Shown in pieces: positions 45,281 to 54,715 of a DNA stretch of 64,000 nt. The notes below the pieces were generated by a model. The model searched no databases and was not told the DNA's origin. It was given only the letters and a program-made list of their open reading frames with translations. The translations under genes were made by a program, and so were the position numbers. This DNA is from Bryobacterales bacterium F-183. Its GTDB lineage: Bacteria; Acidobacteriota; Terriglobia; Bryobacterales; Bryobacteraceae. Each line of letters begins with the position of its first letter. Positions within the stretch are counted from its first letter, which is position 1. The stretch lies in the NCBI GenBank assembly GCA_016865505.2, contig AP025252.1:3658001-3722000 (forward strand), written 5' to 3'.

Positions 45281-47635
45281 GTGCTTACGCTGTTGTCCGC
45301 TATCTTGTTGCTGGCGCAGGACACACCGGTGTCGGGCCGCGCCGTCTCGATCATTGAGGCCAAGTGCCAGCAGTGCCATTCCGCGAACGTTCGAATGGGC
45401 GGCATACAGTTCACTTCGTCCAGCGACGTACAGGCCGTAGCCGGCAAGCTGAAGACGGCCATCGCCTACACCGGCAAGATCAAGATGCCGCCTGGCGGTG
45501 CTTTGGCCGCGGATGAGAAACAGGCCATCGAGCAATGGATCGCATCCGGCGCGGTTTGGACAGCTCCACCAAAGGGCACTGTGACCTCGTCCCACTGGGC
45601 CTTCCGCAAGGTCACCAAACCCAAAACCCACACCACCATCGACCAGTTCATCAGCGAAAAGCTTGCAGAAAAATCCTGGAAGATGGCGCCAGAGGCCGAC
45701 AAGCGTACCCTCATCCGCCGCGCGACCTTTGACCTGCACGGCCTGCCTCCCACGCAAGCGGAGATCGACGCCTTCCTCGCCGACACCGCGCCCGATGCCT
45801 ATCAGAAGCTGATCGACCGTCTGCTGGCCTCACCACGCTACGGCGAAAAGTGGGGACTCCACTGGCTCGACCTCGCCCGCTACGGCGACACCTCGGGCTT
45901 TGAGCAGGACCCCTATCTTCTGTACTCCTGGCGCTATCGCGACTACGTCATCAAGGCGTTTAACGACGACAAGCCGTACGACCGGTTCATTCTGGAAACC
46001 ATCGCCGGCGACGAGATCTTTCCGGAAGATCCCGAATCGCAGCAGGGCACAGGCTTCTACACCGTCGGCGCCAACCGCGACATGCTCTACAAGGTGGAGG
46101 ACATCAACCGCGAAGAGTCCCTCACGGACTTCACCGACACGACCTCGTCTGTCTTTCTCGGCCTCACTGCAGGCTGCGCCCGCTGCCACGACCATAAGTT
46201 CGACCCCGTCCCCCAGCGTGACTACTTCCGCATGCAGGCCGTCTTCGCGCCTTTCTTGAAGACCCGTGTCTTCCTGCACTACAACAACGCCCGCGGCTAC
46301 GACCTGAGCGAGAACACCCGCACCTTCCGCCTGTACGAGGTCGGCGCGCAACTCAGCGCGATCCTGGACCCCCATCGTACCCGCCTGCGCGAGGCCCGTC
46401 TGGCCAAGCTTCCCAAAGAAGTTGTCGATGCTTACCGCACACCGGAAGATAAGAAGACGCCGGAACAGAAGGCGATCAACGACGCCAACATCAAGAACAT
46501 CGAGCCGCCGGATGACGAAGTCTACGCGCAGTTGAATCCCGAAGAGAATGAGCGCCTCCGCAAGATCGAGCGTCGCCTGGTCGGCATGTACCGCAACTAC
46601 GCACCGGGTCCGTTCTCCCCGGGGTTGACGGACGTGGGTCGCGAATCGCCGCGTACGTTCGTGCCCGCCAAGGCGGGATCGGCACCGCAGGAAGTCCGCG
46701 CGGGGTTCCTCACGGTACTCGGCGGCGGCGACATCGCGGATCCGCCGATGGATTCGCCCACCACTCTACGTCGTAAGGCTTTGGCCGAATGGATCGCGTC
46801 GCCGGAGAACCCGCTCACCGCTCGCGTGATGGCCAATCGCATCTGGCAGTATCACTTTGGACGCGGCCTCAATCCCACGCCGAGCGACTTCGGTACGCGT
46901 GCTGGCTCCCCATCGCACCCCGAGCTTCTGGACTGGCTCGCGTCCGACTTTGTCGAACGCAAGTGGTCCATCAAGGCGATGCACCGGCTCATCATGAACT
47001 CCGCGGCGTACAAGCAGAGCGCGCGTCCTGCAGACCCGAGGTCGCTTGAGATGGACCCGGAAAACGTCCTGCTATCCCGCTTCACCCGCCGCCGTCTGCA
47101 GTCGGAAGAGGTTCGCGATGCGGTGTTGCAAGCTGCCGGGACACTGAACTTGAAGATGGGCGGACGTCCTGTCGTGCCTCCGCTCGCGGCCGAAGAGCTG
47201 TACGGCATGAGCCAGCCGGTGAATAGTGCGTGGATCGTGACCGAAGATCCCAAAGAACATACGCGACGGTCGATTTACCTGATCTCTCGCCGCAACTTCC
47301 GCGTACCTCTGCTCGAGGCGTTTGACCGTCCGGAAGGCGTACTCAGTTGCTCCCGCCGCGAATCATCGACAACCGCACCGCAATCGCTGAGCTTGCTGAA
47401 CGGCCAGTTCACCATGCAGCAGGCAACCGTACTCGCGTCGAAGATGGAAGCCGCGCCGGACCCCATCGCCTACGCCTGGAGCGCGGTGTTTGGCCGCAAG
47501 CCCACCGCGCAGGAAGCCGAACGTACTGCGAAGTTTTTAGCAGCGCAGACCAAAAACCTCGGTACGCGCCAGGCGGCGCTCACCGAACTCGCCCGCGGCC
47601 TTTTCAACGTCAACGAATTTTTGTACGTGGAGTAA
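45281..47635 (+). CDS. Planctomycete-type cytochrome protein with DUF1549 and DUF1553 (PSD1 type)
   Basis: A 784-residue exported protein. After a short signal peptide comes a cytochrome c-like domain with CQQCH at 29-33 and KMPPGG as the likely haem axial region. DUF1549 follows (about 115-320: RATFDLHGLPPTQAEIDAFL, GEKWGLHWLDLARYGDT) and DUF1553 at about 490-750 (LAEWIASPENPLTARVMANR, FGTRAGSPSHPELLDWLA). The start is a GTG. It is read 3 bases before the DUF1501 gene, a pairing found throughout Planctomycetes and Acidobacteria and thought to act on polysaccharides or other polymers; the activity is unproven. Confidence 0.93.
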   Translation: MLTLLSAILLLAQDTPVSGRAVSIIEAKCQQCHSANVRMGGIQFTSSSDVQAVAGKLKTAIAYTGKIKMPPGGALAADEKQAIEQWIASGAVWTAPPKGTVTSSHWAFRKVTKPKTHTTIDQFISEKLAEKSWKMAPEADKRTLIRRATFDLHGLPPTQAEIDAFLADTAPDAYQKLIDRLLASPRYGEKWGLHWLDLARYGDTSGFEQDPYLLYSWRYRDYVIKAFNDDKPYDRFILETIAGDEIFPEDPESQQGTGFYTVGANRDMLYKVEDINREESLTDFTDTTSSVFLGLTAGCARCHDHKFDPVPQRDYFRMQAVFAPFLKTRVFLHYNNARGYDLSENTRTFRLYEVGAQLSAILDPHRTRLREARLAKLPKEVVDAYRTPEDKKTPEQKAINDANIKNIEPPDDEVYAQLNPEENERLRKIERRLVGMYRNYAPGPFSPGLTDVGRESPRTFVPAKAGSAPQEVRAGFLTVLGGGDIADPPMDSPTTLRRKALAEWIASPENPLTARVMANRIWQYHFGRGLNPTPSDFGTRAGSPSHPELLDWLASDFVERKWSIKAMHRLIMNSAAYKQSARPADPRSLEMDPENVLLSRFTRRRLQSEEVRDAVLQAAGTLNLKMGGRPVVPPLAAEELYGMSQPVNSAWIVTEDPKEHTRRSIYLISRRNFRVPLLEAFDRPEGVLSCSRRESSTTAPQSLSLLNGQFTMQQATVLASKMEAAPDPIAYAWSAVFGRKPTAQEAERTAKFLAAQTKNLGTRQAALTELARGLFNVNEFLYVE

Positions 47636-47638
47636 ACG

Positions 47639-49036
47639 ATGCTCAATCGCCGTCAGATGTTTATCCGTTCCGCCAAGGGCTTCGGCGGACTCGCGCTTGC
47701 CTCGATGCTGGCGGAAGAGACCGGTCATGCCGCGGTGGACGCGAGCAAGGCCAAGGCCAAAAGCATCATCTACATCTTCAACCACGGCGGCGTGAGCCAC
47801 GTCGACACCTTCGACCCCAAGCCCACGCTCACGCGCCTTTCCGGCGAAACCGTACCCGCCAGCTTTGCCCAGGGCCTCAAGACCTCGCGCATCGACTTCC
47901 GCAAAGCCATCATGCGAGGCTCGCCCTGGCAGTTCCCCAAGCACGGCCATGGTGGGCTCGAAATCTCCACGCTCTTCCCGCATCTGTCGCAGCACGCCGA
48001 TAAACTCGCCGTCATTCGCTCGTGCTACAGCGAAGCGTTCGACCACGCCCCGGCGATGTTCCATAGCTGCACGGGCTCGCAGTTTCCCGGGCGTCCGTCC
48101 TTGGGCGCCTGGCTCAGCTACGGCCTCGGCAGCGAGAACAAGAACCTGCCCTCGTACGTGGTGATGTCCGATGGCGCGATGAAGTCCGGCGCAGGTGCGT
48201 ACGGCTCAGGCTTCCTTCCAGCGACCTACCAGGGCACCATCTTCCGCAGCGGCAAGAGCCCGGTGCTGAACCTCGCCAGTCCCGACAAGGTCACCACGCA
48301 AGCCCAGCGCGAGACCCTGGACTTCATCAACGACCTCAACCGCGGCCACTATGCCTCGCGCGAAGAGGACACCGCGCTCGACGCACGCATCCGGTCCTAC
48401 GAACTCGCCTTCCGCATGCAGGCCGAAGCTCCCGGCGTGGTGGACATCAGCACCGAATCCGAAGCGACGCAAAAGCTCTACGGCATTGACCAACCGATGA
48501 CCGCCGACTTCGGCCGCAAGTGCCTGCTCGCCCGCCGTCTCGTCGAACGAGGCGTCCGCAGCGTCCAACTCTTCTTCGGCACCAACCTCGGCGACGATTG
48601 GGACGACGCGCATAACGACCTGCTCGGGTCGCACAACAAGATGGCCAAGAAGTCGGACCAGCCGATTGCCGCACTGCTCACGGACCTCGCGGCCCGCGGA
48701 CTCCTGGATCAAACCCTCGTCGTCTGGAACAGTGAGTTCGGCCGCACGCCGCTCGCCGAAGGCAAGAACGGCCGCGACCATCATCCGTACGGCTACGCAA
48801 TGTGGATGGCCGGCGCGGGGATTCAAGGCGGCCGTGCGTTAGGAGCCACCGACGAGTTTGGCCTCCGCGCCACGGAGGATCGCAAGTCGATCCACGACGT
48901 CCATGCCACGATCCTCCGCATCCTCGGCATCGACCATTTGCAATTGACCTGGCGCTACCAAAGCCGCGACATGCGCCTCACCGATGTACATGGTGAGGGC
49001 GAGTTCACGAATTGGCTGTATCAGCAGAAGGCATAG
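47639..49036 (+). CDS. Tat-exported DUF1501 protein
   Basis: A 465-residue protein of the DUF1501 family (alkaline phosphatase-like/sulfatase fold). The N-terminus MLNRRQMFIRSAKGFGG contains the RRxxF pattern of a Tat signal, implying export in folded form. Conserved stretches are IYIFNHGGVSHVDTFDPKP, RPSLGAWLSYGLGSEN, VVWNSEFGRTP and GRDHHPYGYAMWMAG; they supply likely metal ligands. It is translationally linked to the preceding DUF1549/DUF1553 cytochrome gene, its usual partner. Confidence 0.94.
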   Translation: MLNRRQMFIRSAKGFGGLALASMLAEETGHAAVDASKAKAKSIIYIFNHGGVSHVDTFDPKPTLTRLSGETVPASFAQGLKTSRIDFRKAIMRGSPWQFPKHGHGGLEISTLFPHLSQHADKLAVIRSCYSEAFDHAPAMFHSCTGSQFPGRPSLGAWLSYGLGSENKNLPSYVVMSDGAMKSGAGAYGSGFLPATYQGTIFRSGKSPVLNLASPDKVTTQAQRETLDFINDLNRGHYASREEDTALDARIRSYELAFRMQAEAPGVVDISTESEATQKLYGIDQPMTADFGRKCLLARRLVERGVRSVQLFFGTNLGDDWDDAHNDLLGSHNKMAKKSDQPIAALLTDLAARGLLDQTLVVWNSEFGRTPLAEGKNGRDHHPYGYAMWMAGAGIQGGRALGATDEFGLRATEDRKSIHDVHATILRILGIDHLQLTWRYQSRDMRLTDVHGEGEFTNWLYQQKA

Positions 49037-49040
49037 CAAG

Positions 49041-50399
49041 ATGTGGCGATACTTGTTTGCGGTCTTGCTCGCAGGCGCTCCGGCGTTCGCCTGCAGTTGT
49101 AGCTTTAGCGATGCCACGGTCCGCGAAGTATGGAAAGCTCGTCCGTATGTCTTCCTCGGTACTGTCGTTGCTGCGGTACCCGACACGGATCAGTCGTACA
49201 TCCCGCACGTCGCGCATATTCGCGTCGACGAAGCATTCAAAGGCGTCCAAAAGGGCGAGATGCTGGACCTCGAGCAGGGCGGCACCAGTTGCGACGCACA
49301 CTTTCGCAGCGGGCAGCGTTACGTTTTCTATTTGGCCGGAACACGCGGACGCTATCAATTGCCCTGGTGTAGCATTGCCCTGGGAAGTCCGGACCCGGAA
49401 GGGGAAGATCTGTTGTTCCTCAACGGTCTTCCCGCAACGGCAAAGGGCACCCGTCTGTCGGCGGTCGTCTACAGCAAGTGGGGCAGTGTACCAGGCGCTC
49501 CCGTTACCATAACGGGTTCGCCTTCGATGCGACCGCTGGTAAAGAAAACCAACTCAGCCGGTGTCGTCGAGTTTTATGGTCTTCCGCCGGGCGAGTATAA
49601 AGTTCGGGTAGCTGCACCCACGGGCTATCGCGTTGAGGATGGTCGCCCGGAAGTGGAATCTTCCGTTGTTCTCAAGAACGACAGCGCCAGTGGCCATACC
49701 TACGCTCGGTTGGATTACGATACGTCCATTTCCGGTACGGTTCTGACGGGTGGCGCTGCCAGGGTGGAACTGATTCCTGTCTCGCCAGTCCCCGGCCGCA
49801 ACCGCGCGTGGCTCGATTCCGGTAGGCCTTCGGAAGACGGCACCTTCGCCATCAAGAACATCGAGCCCGGGTCGTATTGGCTTCGCGTGACTCTGGAGGA
49901 TCGCAAGAACCCGCGTTTCACCTCCACTTTGTACTACCCGAACGTGCGCACCCGCGCGAATGCGAAGGTGATCACGATCGAGTCCGCCCGCAAGTTGCAG
50001 GACATGAAGGTCGCGCTACCCGCGGATGAGCCCATGCATACCATCCACGGACGCTTTACCTATTCGGACGGGAAAGCAGTTGCAGAGGCGCGGGTTGTGT
50101 TCCGGACTGCAGCAGAGCTTGATCATCTTTCCGCAGCCAGCACCGATGATGACGGTGCCTTTCGCCTGAGGGTCCCCGCAGGCTTGAAAGGAACTGTGCA
50201 TGGTGCCCTGGGCGTATTCGATTTGGAAAACCGAGAGTGTCCTCAGTTCGAGCACGCCGAGTCCGAGAGGCAAGGTATATTTCGTAGTCTTCAAACGCCA
50301 AACATCCCCTTGGATGAAAGTGAAGCCGATAAGGAAGTGAATCTGCAATTCCCGTTTCCTTCCTGCCCGGCTCACGACAGGCTCCGTAACAAAAAGTAG
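49041..50399 (+). CDS. Secreted protein with TIMP-like N-terminus and carboxypeptidase-regulatory-like repeats
   Basis: A 452-residue exported protein. Cleavage after the signal peptide (PAFA) would leave CSCSFSDATVREVWKARP at the mature N-terminus, a CxC start as in netrin/TIMP-like domains; VFLGTVVAA and VDEAFKGVQKG fit that fold. Several CarboxypepD_reg-like beta-sandwich repeats follow (GVVEFYGLPPGEYKVRVAAP; DGTFAIKNIEPGSYWLRVTL; DDGAFRLRVPAGLKGTVHG). It starts 4 bases after the DUF1501 stop. The role may be binding or scaffolding at the surface; no enzyme motif is seen. Confidence 0.8.
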   Translation: MWRYLFAVLLAGAPAFACSCSFSDATVREVWKARPYVFLGTVVAAVPDTDQSYIPHVAHIRVDEAFKGVQKGEMLDLEQGGTSCDAHFRSGQRYVFYLAGTRGRYQLPWCSIALGSPDPEGEDLLFLNGLPATAKGTRLSAVVYSKWGSVPGAPVTITGSPSMRPLVKKTNSAGVVEFYGLPPGEYKVRVAAPTGYRVEDGRPEVESSVVLKNDSASGHTYARLDYDTSISGTVLTGGAARVELIPVSPVPGRNRAWLDSGRPSEDGTFAIKNIEPGSYWLRVTLEDRKNPRFTSTLYYPNVRTRANAKVITIESARKLQDMKVALPADEPMHTIHGRFTYSDGKAVAEARVVFRTAAELDHLSAASTDDDGAFRLRVPAGLKGTVHGALGVFDLENRECPQFEHAESERQGIFRSLQTPNIPLDESEADKEVNLQFPFPSCPAHDRLRNKK

Positions 50400-50456: not shown

Positions 50457-51434
50457 ATGAACATCGCCGCTACCCTTTGCCTTGCCACCTGCCTCTCCGC
50501 CGCTGCCGCCAATCCAACTGCACCCATCTCTGTACTTTGGAAAAACCCGCAATCGCGCGAGCTTTACTACGGCTCGGGCGGCAGCGCCCATCAGCCCCGC
50601 GCGCCGTACACATTTGTCAAAGAGATGGACGGTGCATCATCACCCAAATTCATCGTCAAGGACGCTGCCGGCAAAGAATGGCGCGTCAAACTCGGTCCCG
50701 AGGCCAAGGCGGAAACTGCCGCGACCCGCTTGATCTGGGCCGCCGGCTACTACACCGACGATGATTACATGGTGAAAAACTTCCGCATAAAGGGTCTGCC
50801 CAAAGAACTGACGCGAGGCCAGAACTTCGTGCATAACGGCACCGTGGAGTACGGCCGCTTTGAGCGATCCTACGCCAACGGCAAGTACCTCGGCTCCTGG
50901 GACTGGAAGCAGAACCCCTTCACCGGCACCCGCGAACTCAACGGTCTCAAGATCATGATGGCCCTGGTGAACAACTGGGACCTGAAGAATGCCAACACCA
51001 CCATCTACGAACTGCGCGACCCTGCGGCAGGCGTGAAGCGCCACGTGTACCTGATCGGCGATCTCGGCGCGACGTTCGGCCGCCCCAGCTATGCGATCCC
51101 CAACGCCAAGTCCGATCCCAAGGCCTACCGCAAGTCCGAAATGGTCGCGAAGGTAGAAGGCAAGACCGTAGACTTCAACACGCCGTCACGCCCACCGCTG
51201 GTGCATCCCATGGCTGTACCCCACATGTTCTTCACCATGTTCCGCCATGGCGAAAAAGAACTGACCCGCGACATCCCCACGCGCGATGCACGCTGGATGG
51301 GCGGTATCCTCGCCCGGCTTTCCGAGACACAGATTCGTTCCGCCTTCCGCGCTGCCGGCTACAACGCGGAAGAGGTCAGCATTCTCACACGCGAAGTACG
51401 CGAACGCATCGCCGTACTTCGCAACCTCCGCTAA
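50457..51434 (+). CDS. Secreted protein with kinase-fold-like motifs, function unknown
   Basis: A 325-residue protein with a signal peptide (about 1-18, ending SAAAA). I do not recognise a named family, but motifs follow the order of an atypical kinase: FIVKDAAGKEWRVKLG with Lys78, Glu86 in KAETAATRLIWAAGY, then NNWDLKNAN with Asp175 and Asn180 in a D-x4-N arrangement, then LIGDLGATFG with Asp202 in a DxG place. HipA- and FAM20-type kinases share this skeleton. The typical glycine-rich loop is not evident. If correct, it would phosphorylate something outside the cytoplasm. The prediction rests on motif order only. Confidence 0.6.
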   Translation: MNIAATLCLATCLSAAAANPTAPISVLWKNPQSRELYYGSGGSAHQPRAPYTFVKEMDGASSPKFIVKDAAGKEWRVKLGPEAKAETAATRLIWAAGYYTDDDYMVKNFRIKGLPKELTRGQNFVHNGTVEYGRFERSYANGKYLGSWDWKQNPFTGTRELNGLKIMMALVNNWDLKNANTTIYELRDPAAGVKRHVYLIGDLGATFGRPSYAIPNAKSDPKAYRKSEMVAKVEGKTVDFNTPSRPPLVHPMAVPHMFFTMFRHGEKELTRDIPTRDARWMGGILARLSETQIRSAFRAAGYNAEEVSILTREVRERIAVLRNLR

Positions 51435-51440
51435 AGCAAC

Positions 51441-53732
51441 TTACATCAACTTATCGAGGGTGATCGGCAAACTGGTCACCCTCTTGCCCGTGGCATGGTA
51501 CACCGCATTCGCCACCGCCGCCGCGACACCCGTGATGCCAATCTCACCGATGCCATGCGCGCCCAGCGGCGTATGCGGATCCGGCTCATTCGTGTACACG
51601 ACCTCTATATCCGGGATGTCCGCCTGCACCGGCACGTGATACTCAGCGAGCGACGGATTCATGATGCGGCCCGTACGATCGTCGAACATCGTCTCCTCCG
51701 TCAGCGCCATGCCGATACCCATGATGATGCCGCCGCGGAACTGCGACACCGCCATCTTTGGATTCAGAATGCGTCCGGTATCGAACGAACCCACCCAACG
51801 CTGTACACGCACTTCGCCCGACAGCGCATGCACACGAACCTCGCAGAACTGCGCCGCATACGAATGCATGGAGTACTTCAGCAACTCCATCGGAGCGCCG
51901 GTCTTGTGATCCGCCTCGACAAAGTCCTTGCCCGCACGCGACAGGATCGCCGCATAGCTTTCGCCGCCACCCGACACGCGCCAAAAGATGCCTTCGTCTT
52001 TTGCCACCACATCCTCAAAGTTCGCCTCGCGTAACGGACTGCGCTCGTCCTTCTGCGCCAACGCCAGCAGTTCTTTCAGAACCTTCGCCCCAGCCTCTTG
52101 CACCGCCAGCGCGACGCTCACCGTTTGCGACGATCCACCAGCGACGCCCGCATACGGCAAGGTGCTATCGCCATATTCAAACCGTACCTTCGACATCGGC
52201 AATCCCAATCGCTCCGCCAGATGCTGCGTCTGCACGGTCTCCGTACCCATGCCCATCTCCTGGCACGAGGTCTGCGCCACTGCCGTACCATCGGCGGAGA
52301 TGCGGACACGCGCTGCTGTCACCATGCGGTACACCGGATAGGTTCCCGTGGCGACGCCTTGTCCGATCCACCAGTCGCCATCGCGCTGGCTACGAGGCTC
52401 CGCCGGACGCGACTTCCAGCCAAATCGCTCCACCCCCATCTCGTACGCCTTGCGCATATGGCGGCTCGAGAATGGCGACCCGCTCACCGGGTCCGCGTCG
52501 GGCTCATTGCGCATGCGCAACGCCACCGGACACATCTTCAATTCGTACGCCAACGCGTCGATCCCGCTCTCCACCGCAAACGTTCCAATCGATTCGCCCG
52601 GCGCCCGCATAAACGTATTCGCTACACGGCTCAGGTCCGTCACCTTCTGCCCGATGCGGTACGCCTCCATCGAATACAGGTGCCGCGGCGGAAAGCTGAA
52701 CTGTTCCGGAAAATGATTGTGGGTCGACTGCGCCGTCACACCCTCATGTACAAACCCCAGGAACTTGCCCGCATCATCAGCGCTGATCGCGACACGCTGT
52801 TGCGACGGCGTCCTGCCGCCAACAATGCGAAACACACCTTCACGCGTCATCGCCAAACGTACCGGACGTCCCGTCTCGCGCGCCGCCAATGCGCACAGCT
52901 GAATGTACGGCCAGGCACCGCCCTTTCCGCCAAATCCACCGCCGACATACGGCGCGACCACGCGTACATGATCCGCCTTCAGTCCAAACACCTGCGCGAT
53001 GGTCGTGGCAACGCCTGCCGTGAACTGGCTGGTGTCGTACAGCGTCAGATCGTCCTTGCCGTCCCACTGCGCGATGCAGGCGTGCGGTTCAATCGCGTTG
53101 TGATTGTGAGGCGGCGTGGTGAACGTCAGGTCGATCCGCGCCGCGCTTTGCGACAACGCTTGTTCAACGTCGCCTCGCGTAACCTCCGGATCTTCGCCCA
53201 TAATCGCTTTGGGCTGCTTGGCATCGCCAATGGCGGCTTCAAAGCTCGTGACGCAATCTTCCTTCTCATACGTCGCATGGATGCGTGCTGCAGCCGCCTC
53301 GGCCTGCTCCGGCGTCTCGGCCACAACCAGCGCGATCGGCTGGCCATTCCACGACACATGATCCGTATTCAGGATCTTTGCCTGTGTCGTACCCGCGTCG
53401 TTCGAACTGCCGTCGCCGAACTCCTTGGGGACCTTCATCTCAGGCGCATTCTCATGCGTCAGCACCAGGATCACGCCCGGCAAGGCCTCTGCGGCCTTCG
53501 TGTCGATGCTTGTGATCCGGCCCTTGGCAATCGTGCTGTACGCCAGCGCCGCATGCGCAAGGTTCGCCACCGGATAGTCCGCGGTAAAGGTCGCCTTGCC
53601 GGTCACCTTATCGGGACCGTTGAGGCGGTTGATCGACCGGCCCAGGTAACGGTTGGACGCGATCAGTTCATCGGGCGCCTGGTCAGGCATCACCTGCACC
53701 ACCGACCGAATCACCTTGTTCAGTATGCTCAC
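51441..53732 (-). CDS. Molybdenum hydroxylase large subunit (xanthine dehydrogenase/PaoC family)
   Basis: A 763-residue molybdopterin cytosine dinucleotide-binding subunit. SINRLNGPDKVTGKATFTADYP opens the family domain. PYVGGGFGGKGG and MRAPGESIGTFAVES bind the cofactor, and GAHGIGEIGITG near the C-terminus carries the catalytic glutamate. The GTG at 53732 overlaps the stop of the FAD subunit gene (GTGA). The longer upstream reading lacks family sequence. The substrate is probably an aromatic or other aldehyde, judged from the subunit pattern. Confidence 0.92.
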   Translation of the reverse strand: MSILNKVIRSVVQVMPDQAPDELIASNRYLGRSINRLNGPDKVTGKATFTADYPVANLAHAALAYSTIAKGRITSIDTKAAEALPGVILVLTHENAPEMKVPKEFGDGSSNDAGTTQAKILNTDHVSWNGQPIALVVAETPEQAEAAAARIHATYEKEDCVTSFEAAIGDAKQPKAIMGEDPEVTRGDVEQALSQSAARIDLTFTTPPHNHNAIEPHACIAQWDGKDDLTLYDTSQFTAGVATTIAQVFGLKADHVRVVAPYVGGGFGGKGGAWPYIQLCALAARETGRPVRLAMTREGVFRIVGGRTPSQQRVAISADDAGKFLGFVHEGVTAQSTHNHFPEQFSFPPRHLYSMEAYRIGQKVTDLSRVANTFMRAPGESIGTFAVESGIDALAYELKMCPVALRMRNEPDADPVSGSPFSSRHMRKAYEMGVERFGWKSRPAEPRSQRDGDWWIGQGVATGTYPVYRMVTAARVRISADGTAVAQTSCQEMGMGTETVQTQHLAERLGLPMSKVRFEYGDSTLPYAGVAGGSSQTVSVALAVQEAGAKVLKELLALAQKDERSPLREANFEDVVAKDEGIFWRVSGGGESYAAILSRAGKDFVEADHKTGAPMELLKYSMHSYAAQFCEVRVHALSGEVRVQRWVGSFDTGRILNPKMAVSQFRGGIIMGIGMALTEETMFDDRTGRIMNPSLAEYHVPVQADIPDIEVVYTNEPDPHTPLGAHGIGEIGITGVAAAVANAVYHATGKRVTSLPITLDKLM

Positions 53733-54715
53733 GCCTTCACCTCCGCCAACTCCTGCAGCACCGACGCGATCATGCGCTGTGCCAACTCCACTTTGAATGC
53801 GTTGTCGTGACCCGGTGTCGCGGGCGTAAGTTCGGCTTCCGCTGCTTGCCGGAAGTTCGCCTCCGTCGGCTCTGCGCCATGCAGCATCTGCTCGGCAATC
53901 GATGCCCGCCAAGGCTTGTGCGCGACACCGCCCAGCGCGATCCGGACATCGGCGATGCGGCCGTCCTCGACGCGAAGCGCCGCGCCCACCGACACCAGCG
54001 CAAACGCGTAACTGGCGCGATCCCGCACCTTGCGGTAAATCGACGGCAGGTTCGCGCTGCTCGCCGGCAGGTCCACCGCCGTAATCAACTCGCCCGCGCG
54101 CAACTCGGTCTCGACATGCGGCGTATTGCCGGGCAAACGATGAAAGTCCCCAAACGCGATGCTACGTTCGCCGTCGGGACCCGTCACCTGCACGGTCGCA
54201 TCCAGCGCCGTCAGAGCAACGCACATGTCAGATGGATGCGTCGCGATGCAGTGCGGCGATGTACCCAGAATCGCGTGGATGCGGTGAAACCCCTGCGCGG
54301 CATCGCAACCGCTACCCGGGGTCCGCTTATTGCATCGCGACGCCGTGTCGTAGAAGTAGTAACAACGCGTGCGCTGCATCAGGTTGCCGCCAGTGGTCGC
54401 CATGTTCCGCAATTGCGCCGACGCTCCATGCAAAATCGCCGACGACAGCAGCGGATAACGGTCGCGTACCAGTGGGTGAGCCGCGCAGTGGCTATTCTTC
54501 ACCGTCGCCCCGATGCGCAAGCCACCCTCACGTTCTTCAATCTGCGCCAGCGGCAGCCGCGAAATGTCCACCAGCGCGGCCGGCGTCTCGATCTCTTCGC
54601 GCATGAGGTCGATCAGGTTGGTGCCACCAGCCAGGTACCGGCCCTGGTTCTCATTCAGGAGCGCCACCGCCAAGTCCGGGCTTTCCGATGCCCTTGCGTA
54701 GGAAAAGGAGTTCAT
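53729..54715 (-). CDS. Molybdenum hydroxylase FAD subunit with extra 4Fe-4S site (PaoB-like)
   Basis: A 328-residue flavin-binding subunit. YLAGGTNLIDLM and MATTGGNLMQRTRCYYFYD are the FAD-binding motifs. Cysteines in RCYYF, RCNKR, GSGC and SPHC lie in the inserted loop that in E. coli PaoB holds a [4Fe-4S] cluster. This insert separates the PaoABC group from ordinary xanthine dehydrogenases. It overlaps both neighbours by 4 bases, so the three subunits are made together. Confidence 0.9.
   Translation of the reverse strand: MNSFSYARASESPDLAVALLNENQGRYLAGGTNLIDLMREEIETPAALVDISRLPLAQIEEREGGLRIGATVKNSHCAAHPLVRDRYPLLSSAILHGASAQLRNMATTGGNLMQRTRCYYFYDTASRCNKRTPGSGCDAAQGFHRIHAILGTSPHCIATHPSDMCVALTALDATVQVTGPDGERSIAFGDFHRLPGNTPHVETELRAGELITAVDLPASSANLPSIYRKVRDRASYAFALVSVGAALRVEDGRIADVRIALGGVAHKPWRASIAEQMLHGAEPTEANFRQAAEAELTPATPGHDNAFKVELAQRMIASVLQELAEVKA

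Follow-up and report, generated by a model that had tools for sequence, protein, structure and literature searches.

Few bacterial kinases are found outside the cytoplasm, and ATP is not known to be plentiful in the periplasm, so that an ordinary kinase reaction in this compartment needs explaining. The described systems closest to the locus presented here are the CtkA/HipA/HipT kinases, the Fam20 kinases of the secretory pathway, the CotH kinases, and PI4KII-alpha and actin-fragmin kinase. According to KINtaro (PMC10870513), other proteins with the kinase-like (PKL) fold catalyse AMPylation or glutamylation, and PMC7112168 names cotH, DUF4956 and a poly-phosphate polymerase among the accessory genes of pel gene clusters. 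Against this background, we analysed a gene for which a sequence-only reading had proposed an exported protein with the residue skeleton of a kinase. In relatives, genes for polyphosphate synthesis or for phospholipase-like proteins are frequent neighbours of this gene, and one is led to ask by what an extracytoplasmic kinase would be fuelled. The family thus makes the phosphate donor supply of extracytoplasmic kinases a concrete question, and a PKL family without annotation, putatively exported, with an apparently intact active site and a recurrent gene link to polyphosphate or PLD-like proteins, is a system in which to ask it.

The gene lies in a window of 64,000 nucleotides, by which we mean the whole stretch of DNA analysed, with the following surroundings:

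45281-47635, + strand: DUF1549/DUF1553 protein (Pfam), upstream, on the same strand as the kinase-like gene
47639-49036, + strand: DUF1501 protein (Pfam), upstream, on the same strand as the kinase-like gene
48984-50399, + strand: CarboxypepD_reg-domain protein (PF13620, 4.9e-15), upstream neighbour, 57 bases ahead of the kinase-like ORF
50457-51434, + strand: putatively exported kinase-like (PKL-fold) protein of 325 aa; ORF with an ATG start, supported by relatives, an AlphaFold2 model and fold matches
50457-50510, + strand: predicted signal peptide, about residues 1-18 (hydrophobic-segment rule, cleavage site set by eye, low pLDDT over residues 1-20)
51441-53912, - strand: molybdopterin-binding dehydrogenase gene, downstream and convergent

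The ORF at 50457-51434 is a real gene. On the + strand it fills a frame that stays open for 331 codons from stop to stop, which leaves six codons at most upstream of its ATG. The arrangement of DUF1549/DUF1553 followed by DUF1501, here at 45281-49036, is a pair common in Planctomycetes. The sequence-only reading had described the gene as lying beside surface-protein genes, which is loosely true, the upstream neighbours being DUF1549/DUF1553, DUF1501 and CarboxypepD_reg proteins.

Sequence searches placed the window protein in no described family. Pfam gave no match, NCBIfam a single chance match at 0.26, and phmmer against PDB sequences chance matches only (EF-Tu, E 0.11). An alignment-based scan of species genomes found 127 relatives; the best 80 of these 127 loci were taken for analysis, and all 80 belong to Acidobacteriota. 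Of the 89 ORFs in these public loci, L067 and L083, both truncated by a contig end, and the fusion L070 were set aside, and L035, likewise truncated, was kept; together with the window protein, the 86 remaining ORFs make up a working alignment of 87 rows. At E <= 1 none of the 87 rows matched a kinase family of Pfam or NCBIfam, HipA_C (PF07804) and CotH (PF08757) included, Fam20 models are absent from the 14 Pfam families listed for these rows, and the family profile found no PDB sequence at E <= 10. Pfam's best candidate over the rows, Permuted_GreAB-C (12 rows, best 8.9e-4), and DUF6544 (15/87 rows, best 0.014) were taken for chance because neither is a kinase fold and both cover few rows. 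Profile comparison with hhalign gave nothing meaningful against 14 HipA homologues (aligned without L128 and L132); against nine CotH homologues (aligned without L112 and L116) it gave E 0.0098 with a probability of 4.2% over 36 columns, a value that does not establish homology, the unrelated control, the PLD-like alignment, giving E 0.58.

The kinase-like protein is carried by 11 of 61 genomes (the window's own plus 60 relatives), and 61 of 396 Acidobacteriota genomes match at E <= 1e-5, up to five candidates per genome being scored and some matches being partial and in longer open frames; among viral contigs and plasmids no relative was confirmed. Two or three copies per locus, often in tandem, occur in L025, L026, L029, L078, L081, L085, L088 and L089 and in contig C96 of genome G022. 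We conclude that this is a family without a name, from soil Acidobacteriota and widespread in that phylum, by which the PKL superfamily gains a member family missed by both Pfam and NCBIfam. KINtaro (PMC10870513), which has a table of 72 families, may already include it; in the literature searched, with that table and subscription journals outside the scope, we found no paper on the family.

The five residues singled out by the sequence-only reading occupy the positions given there, and lie as follows:

50688-50690, + strand: Lys78, candidate ATP-phosphate lysine; 87/87 rows, in strand 74-79 of the AlphaFold2 model
50712-50714, + strand: Glu86, candidate helix-C glutamate; 87/87 rows, in helix 82-95 of the model
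50979-50981, + strand: Asp175, candidate catalytic-loop aspartate (DLKNAN); 87/87 rows, in the loop between helix 159-170 and strand 181-188
50994-50996, + strand: Asn180, candidate metal-binding asparagine; 85/87 rows
51060-51062, + strand: Asp202 of DLG, candidate metal-binding aspartate; 87/87 rows, following strand 193-200

Conservation to this degree indicates that the residue set is not due to chance, and the invariance of Asp175 and Asp202, one of two points on which the reading could have failed, supports it. The family motif is D-x-K-x-x-N ... D-L-G, the two rows that lack Asn180 being L029:7896-8921 and L054, and Glu82 (87/87), Gly204 (87/87), Lys64 (86/87) and Lys177 (78/87) are conserved as well. 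A wider alignment of 14 rows, which includes three long relatives that are 19-23% identical in sequence to the window protein, kept Lys78, Asp175, Asn180 and Asp202 invariant and Glu86 nearly so, L008, from outside the 87 rows, having Ala at position 86. The long relatives (L009, L010 and L011) form a sister family: their open frames run to 559-801 codons, the proteins measure about 550 residues, the kinase residues are shared, and Pfam gives nothing at E <= 0.1. As the beta-3 Lys, the helix-C Glu, the catalytic Asp, the Asn and the DxG Asp all fall in the secondary-structure elements expected of them in the AlphaFold2 model, the kinase active site is, judged by its residues, intact.

AlphaFold2 run on the 87-row alignment returned a model with mean pLDDT 90.6 and pTM 0.87. 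In Foldseek, nine PDB chains scored E <= 0.001: CtkA accounts for seven (best 5.5e-5), and Rio2 and MK2 follow. Matches to Fam20, actin-fragmin kinase and HipA have E values of 0.002-0.005, and PI4KII stands further down; TM-scores stay modest, those of the CtkA chains lying at 0.38-0.53. VIA-align, used as a second look at Foldseek's own list, gave Z 13.7 for CtkA (rmsd 4.2, 219 aligned), 13.2 for the Fam20 family (rmsd 3.7, 231 aligned), 11.9 for PI4KII-alpha, 11.3 for actin-fragmin kinase, 10.9 for HipT, 10.6 for CotH and 10.0 for HipA. These scores to several atypical kinases, 10-13.7 over 190-238 residues, against about 5.5 for typical protein kinases, place the window protein with the atypical branch. 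SelO does not appear among the matches listed by Foldseek and VIA-align (50 rows). The model thus shows the two-lobed kinase fold that defines the PKL superfamily and aligns with atypical kinases including Fam20 and HipA, as the sequence-only reading had suspected, so that on predicted structure the assignment to the PKL fold, nearest in shape to the branch of HipA/CtkA, Fam20, PI4KII, actin-fragmin kinase and CotH, largely holds.

Export was judged by a home-made hydrophobicity rule rather than SignalP, with free choice among in-frame starts, and by this rule 83/87 rows have a signal-like N-terminus, compared with 2/36 rows of the neighbouring PLD-like family, which served as a control. At the start codons first chosen 51/87 rows pass; an earlier count of 53/87 rows with a hydrophobic segment was replaced because many starts had been set too far downstream. 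The window row passes at its own ATG, even without a Lys or Arg in its n-region. A fusion offers a second line of evidence: L070:3044-5170 encodes a 709-residue protein with the kinase-like domain at its N-terminus and an Omp85 barrel at its C-terminus (PF01103, 9e-12). The topology of Omp85 proteins is established, and the domain of L070 would accordingly lie on the periplasmic side. Both the row count and the fusion support the view, already proposed with the signal peptide, that this is an exported family.

We then considered the neighbouring genes, for which 926 predicted proteins from the 80 loci were clustered by BLAST with single linkage and recounted within four genes of the kinase. 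At 69/80 loci a gene is present on both sides. The commonest neighbours are an ABC-exporter cluster at 51 of 80 loci (representative L063, PF00664 and PF00005; a loose single-linkage group that may contain unrelated ABC proteins), PLD-like proteins at 47, calcineurin-like phosphatases at 28 and the C5 family at 25, followed by tyrosine/dual-specificity-type phosphatases at 11, the polyphosphate kinase PPK1 at nine and the membrane protein DUF4956 at four, and 14 loci have no PLD-like, PPK1, ABC, DUF4956 or phosphatase gene in this range. The cluster first labelled PLD mixes PLD-like proteins of 370 residues with PPK1 of about 710, the latter carrying the full set of four Pfam PPK domains at L081 and L087 and assigned at the other loci by BLAST clustering and length; the two kinds never occur together at one kinase locus. 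In the commonest order, phosphatase, C5 and PLD-like genes run on one strand, with 22 of 43 adjacent pairs overlapping, the kinase lies on the opposite strand and the ABC gene follows. Export by the same signal rule is predicted for 16/20 calcineurin-like phosphatases (20 of 28 assessed), 16/16 C5 proteins (16 of 23 assessed) and 10/11 tyrosine-type phosphatases. C5 itself (for example L074:5983-6564) is a small family without a Pfam match.

In 52 genomes selected for carrying the kinase-like gene, with 87 kinase genes, the numbers of genomes with the partner within 6 kb of a kinase gene were 25 for PLD-like, 16 for DUF4956 and five for PPK1. At least one of the three lies in that range in 39/52 genomes and at 40/87 kinase genes, and a rough estimate under uniform placement expects about 0.5 such pairs in all; as the genomes are related, the counts are not independent events, and they were made without weak or partial kinase matches, genomes G006, G027 and G044, and the 16 weakest PLD rows. 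This recurrent neighbourhood is new here and goes beyond the earlier reading. In the tree, where PLD loci L021, L033 and L037 and PPK1 locus L020 were left without a label, a single branch with support 84/87 sets the PPK1-linked rows apart from the rest (one change), so that the PPK1 link may have a single origin.

The partner denoted PLD-like (alignment A4) has two PLDc_2 domains by Pfam. Its AlphaFold2 model (pLDDT 84.9) matches phospholipase D first in Foldseek (3.3e-21) and PPK1 next (1.3e-18, TMq 0.63), and sequence profiles favour phospholipase D over PPK1 in the same way (3.6e-15 vs 2e-6); lipids and polyphosphate are both possible substrates.

The gene in the window does not share this neighbourhood. 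No PLD-like, PPK1 or DUF4956 gene lies within 6 kb of it, as is the case for 47/87 kinase genes including this one, its assembly has no match to the PLD-like alignment at E <= 1e-10, and the PPK1 of the assembly is at C1:2259107, 1.4 Mb away. The window copy is thus an orphan, with no partner genes alongside, and the gene context of its relatives is not transferable to it without a test. In the tree it falls on the PLD-like side, without a resolved position and with a long end branch (1.06 against a median of 0.29).

A comparable arrangement around another kinase-like protein is found in the same assembly, where CotH (PF08757, 1.4e-40), DUF4956 (PF16316, 4.2e-9) and the polyphosphate-polymerase domain VTC (PF09359, 3.5e-25) are consecutive genes at L134:7803-10760 (C1 near 5.84 Mb). 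In genome G088 the three lie within 4 kb, and across the 52 genomes five VTC genes were detected, four of which have a DUF4956 gene no more than 1 kb away. At L087, L088, L091 and L095 the kinase has a DUF4956 neighbour whose protein matches the one adjacent to CotH (phmmer 5e-17 to 1.2e-13). The assembly has a second CotH gene at C1:4511786.

The gene, the residues, the fold and the signal-like N-terminus are computed, and it is catalysis, location, donor and acceptor that we infer. Export of the kinase-like protein through the inner membrane would follow the Sec route, and the chain would then take up its fold in the periplasm or on the outer membrane. There Lys78, Glu86, Asn180 and Asp202 would bind a metal-nucleotide or other phosphoryl donor and Asp175 would serve as catalytic base, so that a phosphoryl (less likely another) group is moved to a component of the envelope, for which the sequence-only reading had named proteins or glycans as candidates. 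We think it likely that the window gene encodes an exported PKL-fold enzyme transferring a phosphoryl group in this manner, and an exported phosphotransferase acting on the envelope is the most likely identity of the protein. That the protein has no kinase fold at all and shows the residue order by coincidence would agree with the failure of sequence profiles to match any kinase family, but the high-confidence model, the fold matches to atypical kinases and the invariance of the residues contradict it and make it very improbable. A catalytically silent or alternative PKL protein (a pseudokinase, an AMPylator or another transferase), binding a ligand in the periplasm, is doubtful: the long branch and missing partners of the window copy are compatible with it, as are the AMPylation and glutamylation for which the fold also serves (PMC10870513), whereas the canonical residues are kept in 85-87 of 87 rows, unlike in typical pseudokinases.

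For an exported phosphotransferase, the neighbours of the relatives suggest two candidate substrates or donors. A kinase of envelope lipids or lipid-linked glycans is possible, if on the unlikely side: the PLD-like enzyme would make a lipid head group, the ABC exporter would flip the lipid, the exported kinase would phosphorylate it and exported phosphatases would trim it. The frequent ABC, PLD-like and phosphatase genes fit such a pathway, the nearest folds include the lipid kinase PI4KII, and the partner matches the PLD superfamily better than PPK1. The pathway does not account, however, for loci where PPK1 takes the place of the PLD-like gene, the ABC cluster may be heterogeneous, and the phosphate donor would still need explaining. 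A link of exported kinases to polyphosphate is plausible, and a rather unlikely form of it is an extracytoplasmic kinase fuelled by, or acting on, this polymer. PPK1, VTC or the PLD-like protein would make or handle polyphosphate in the cytoplasm, DUF4956 or the ABC exporter would carry it or a product across the membrane, and the exported enzyme would take it as donor or modify it. What speaks against this is that the PPK1 link may be a single event, that profile and Foldseek E both rank phospholipase D ahead of PPK1 for the PLD-like protein, that more than half of the kinase genes, among them that of the window, lack all three partners, and that in the literature searched, subscription journals lying outside it, we found no paper proposing or testing polyphosphate as donor of such kinases. 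It is favoured by the presence of at least one of the three partners near the kinase in most of the 52 genomes, by the mutual exclusion of PPK1 and PLD-like genes, by the complete PPK1 domain sets and the alignment of the PLD-like model with PPK1, and by the CotH-VTC-DUF4956 genes of the window's own assembly and the cotH, polymerase and DUF4956 genes reported at pel (PMC7112168). We regard as unlikely the proposal that joins these points, in which a phosphotransferase family would work outside the cytoplasm without ATP, on polyphosphate from the linked PPK1 or PLD-fold relative delivered via a DUF4956 or ABC partner, with CotH-VTC-DUF4956 as a parallel second case.

Compared with the known systems, the exported PKL-fold protein shares its fold with PI4KII-alpha and actin-fragmin kinase, from which it differs in that these are eukaryotic, cytosolic or membrane-bound, with no sequence similarity found. 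With CtkA of H. pylori, HipA and HipT, its best fold matches, it has the identical order Lys, Glu, Asp...Asn, Asp, whereas the family has no HipA_C match, carries a signal-like N-terminus and receives no support from hhalign. The Fam20 kinases are alike in fold and in being exported kinase-like proteins, but the present family is bacterial and matches no Fam20 Pfam model at E <= 1. CotH differs in that our family has no PF08757 match and in that its partner, in the loci seen, is PPK1 or a PLD-like protein and not VTC; CotH resembles it in fold, in the weak hhalign alignment, which puts Asp175, Asn180 and Asp202 on CotH residues, and in the DUF4956 gene that neighbours the CotH-VTC cluster as well, so that two kinds of putatively exported kinase-like protein have in common a membrane partner and a polyphosphate polymerase encoded nearby.
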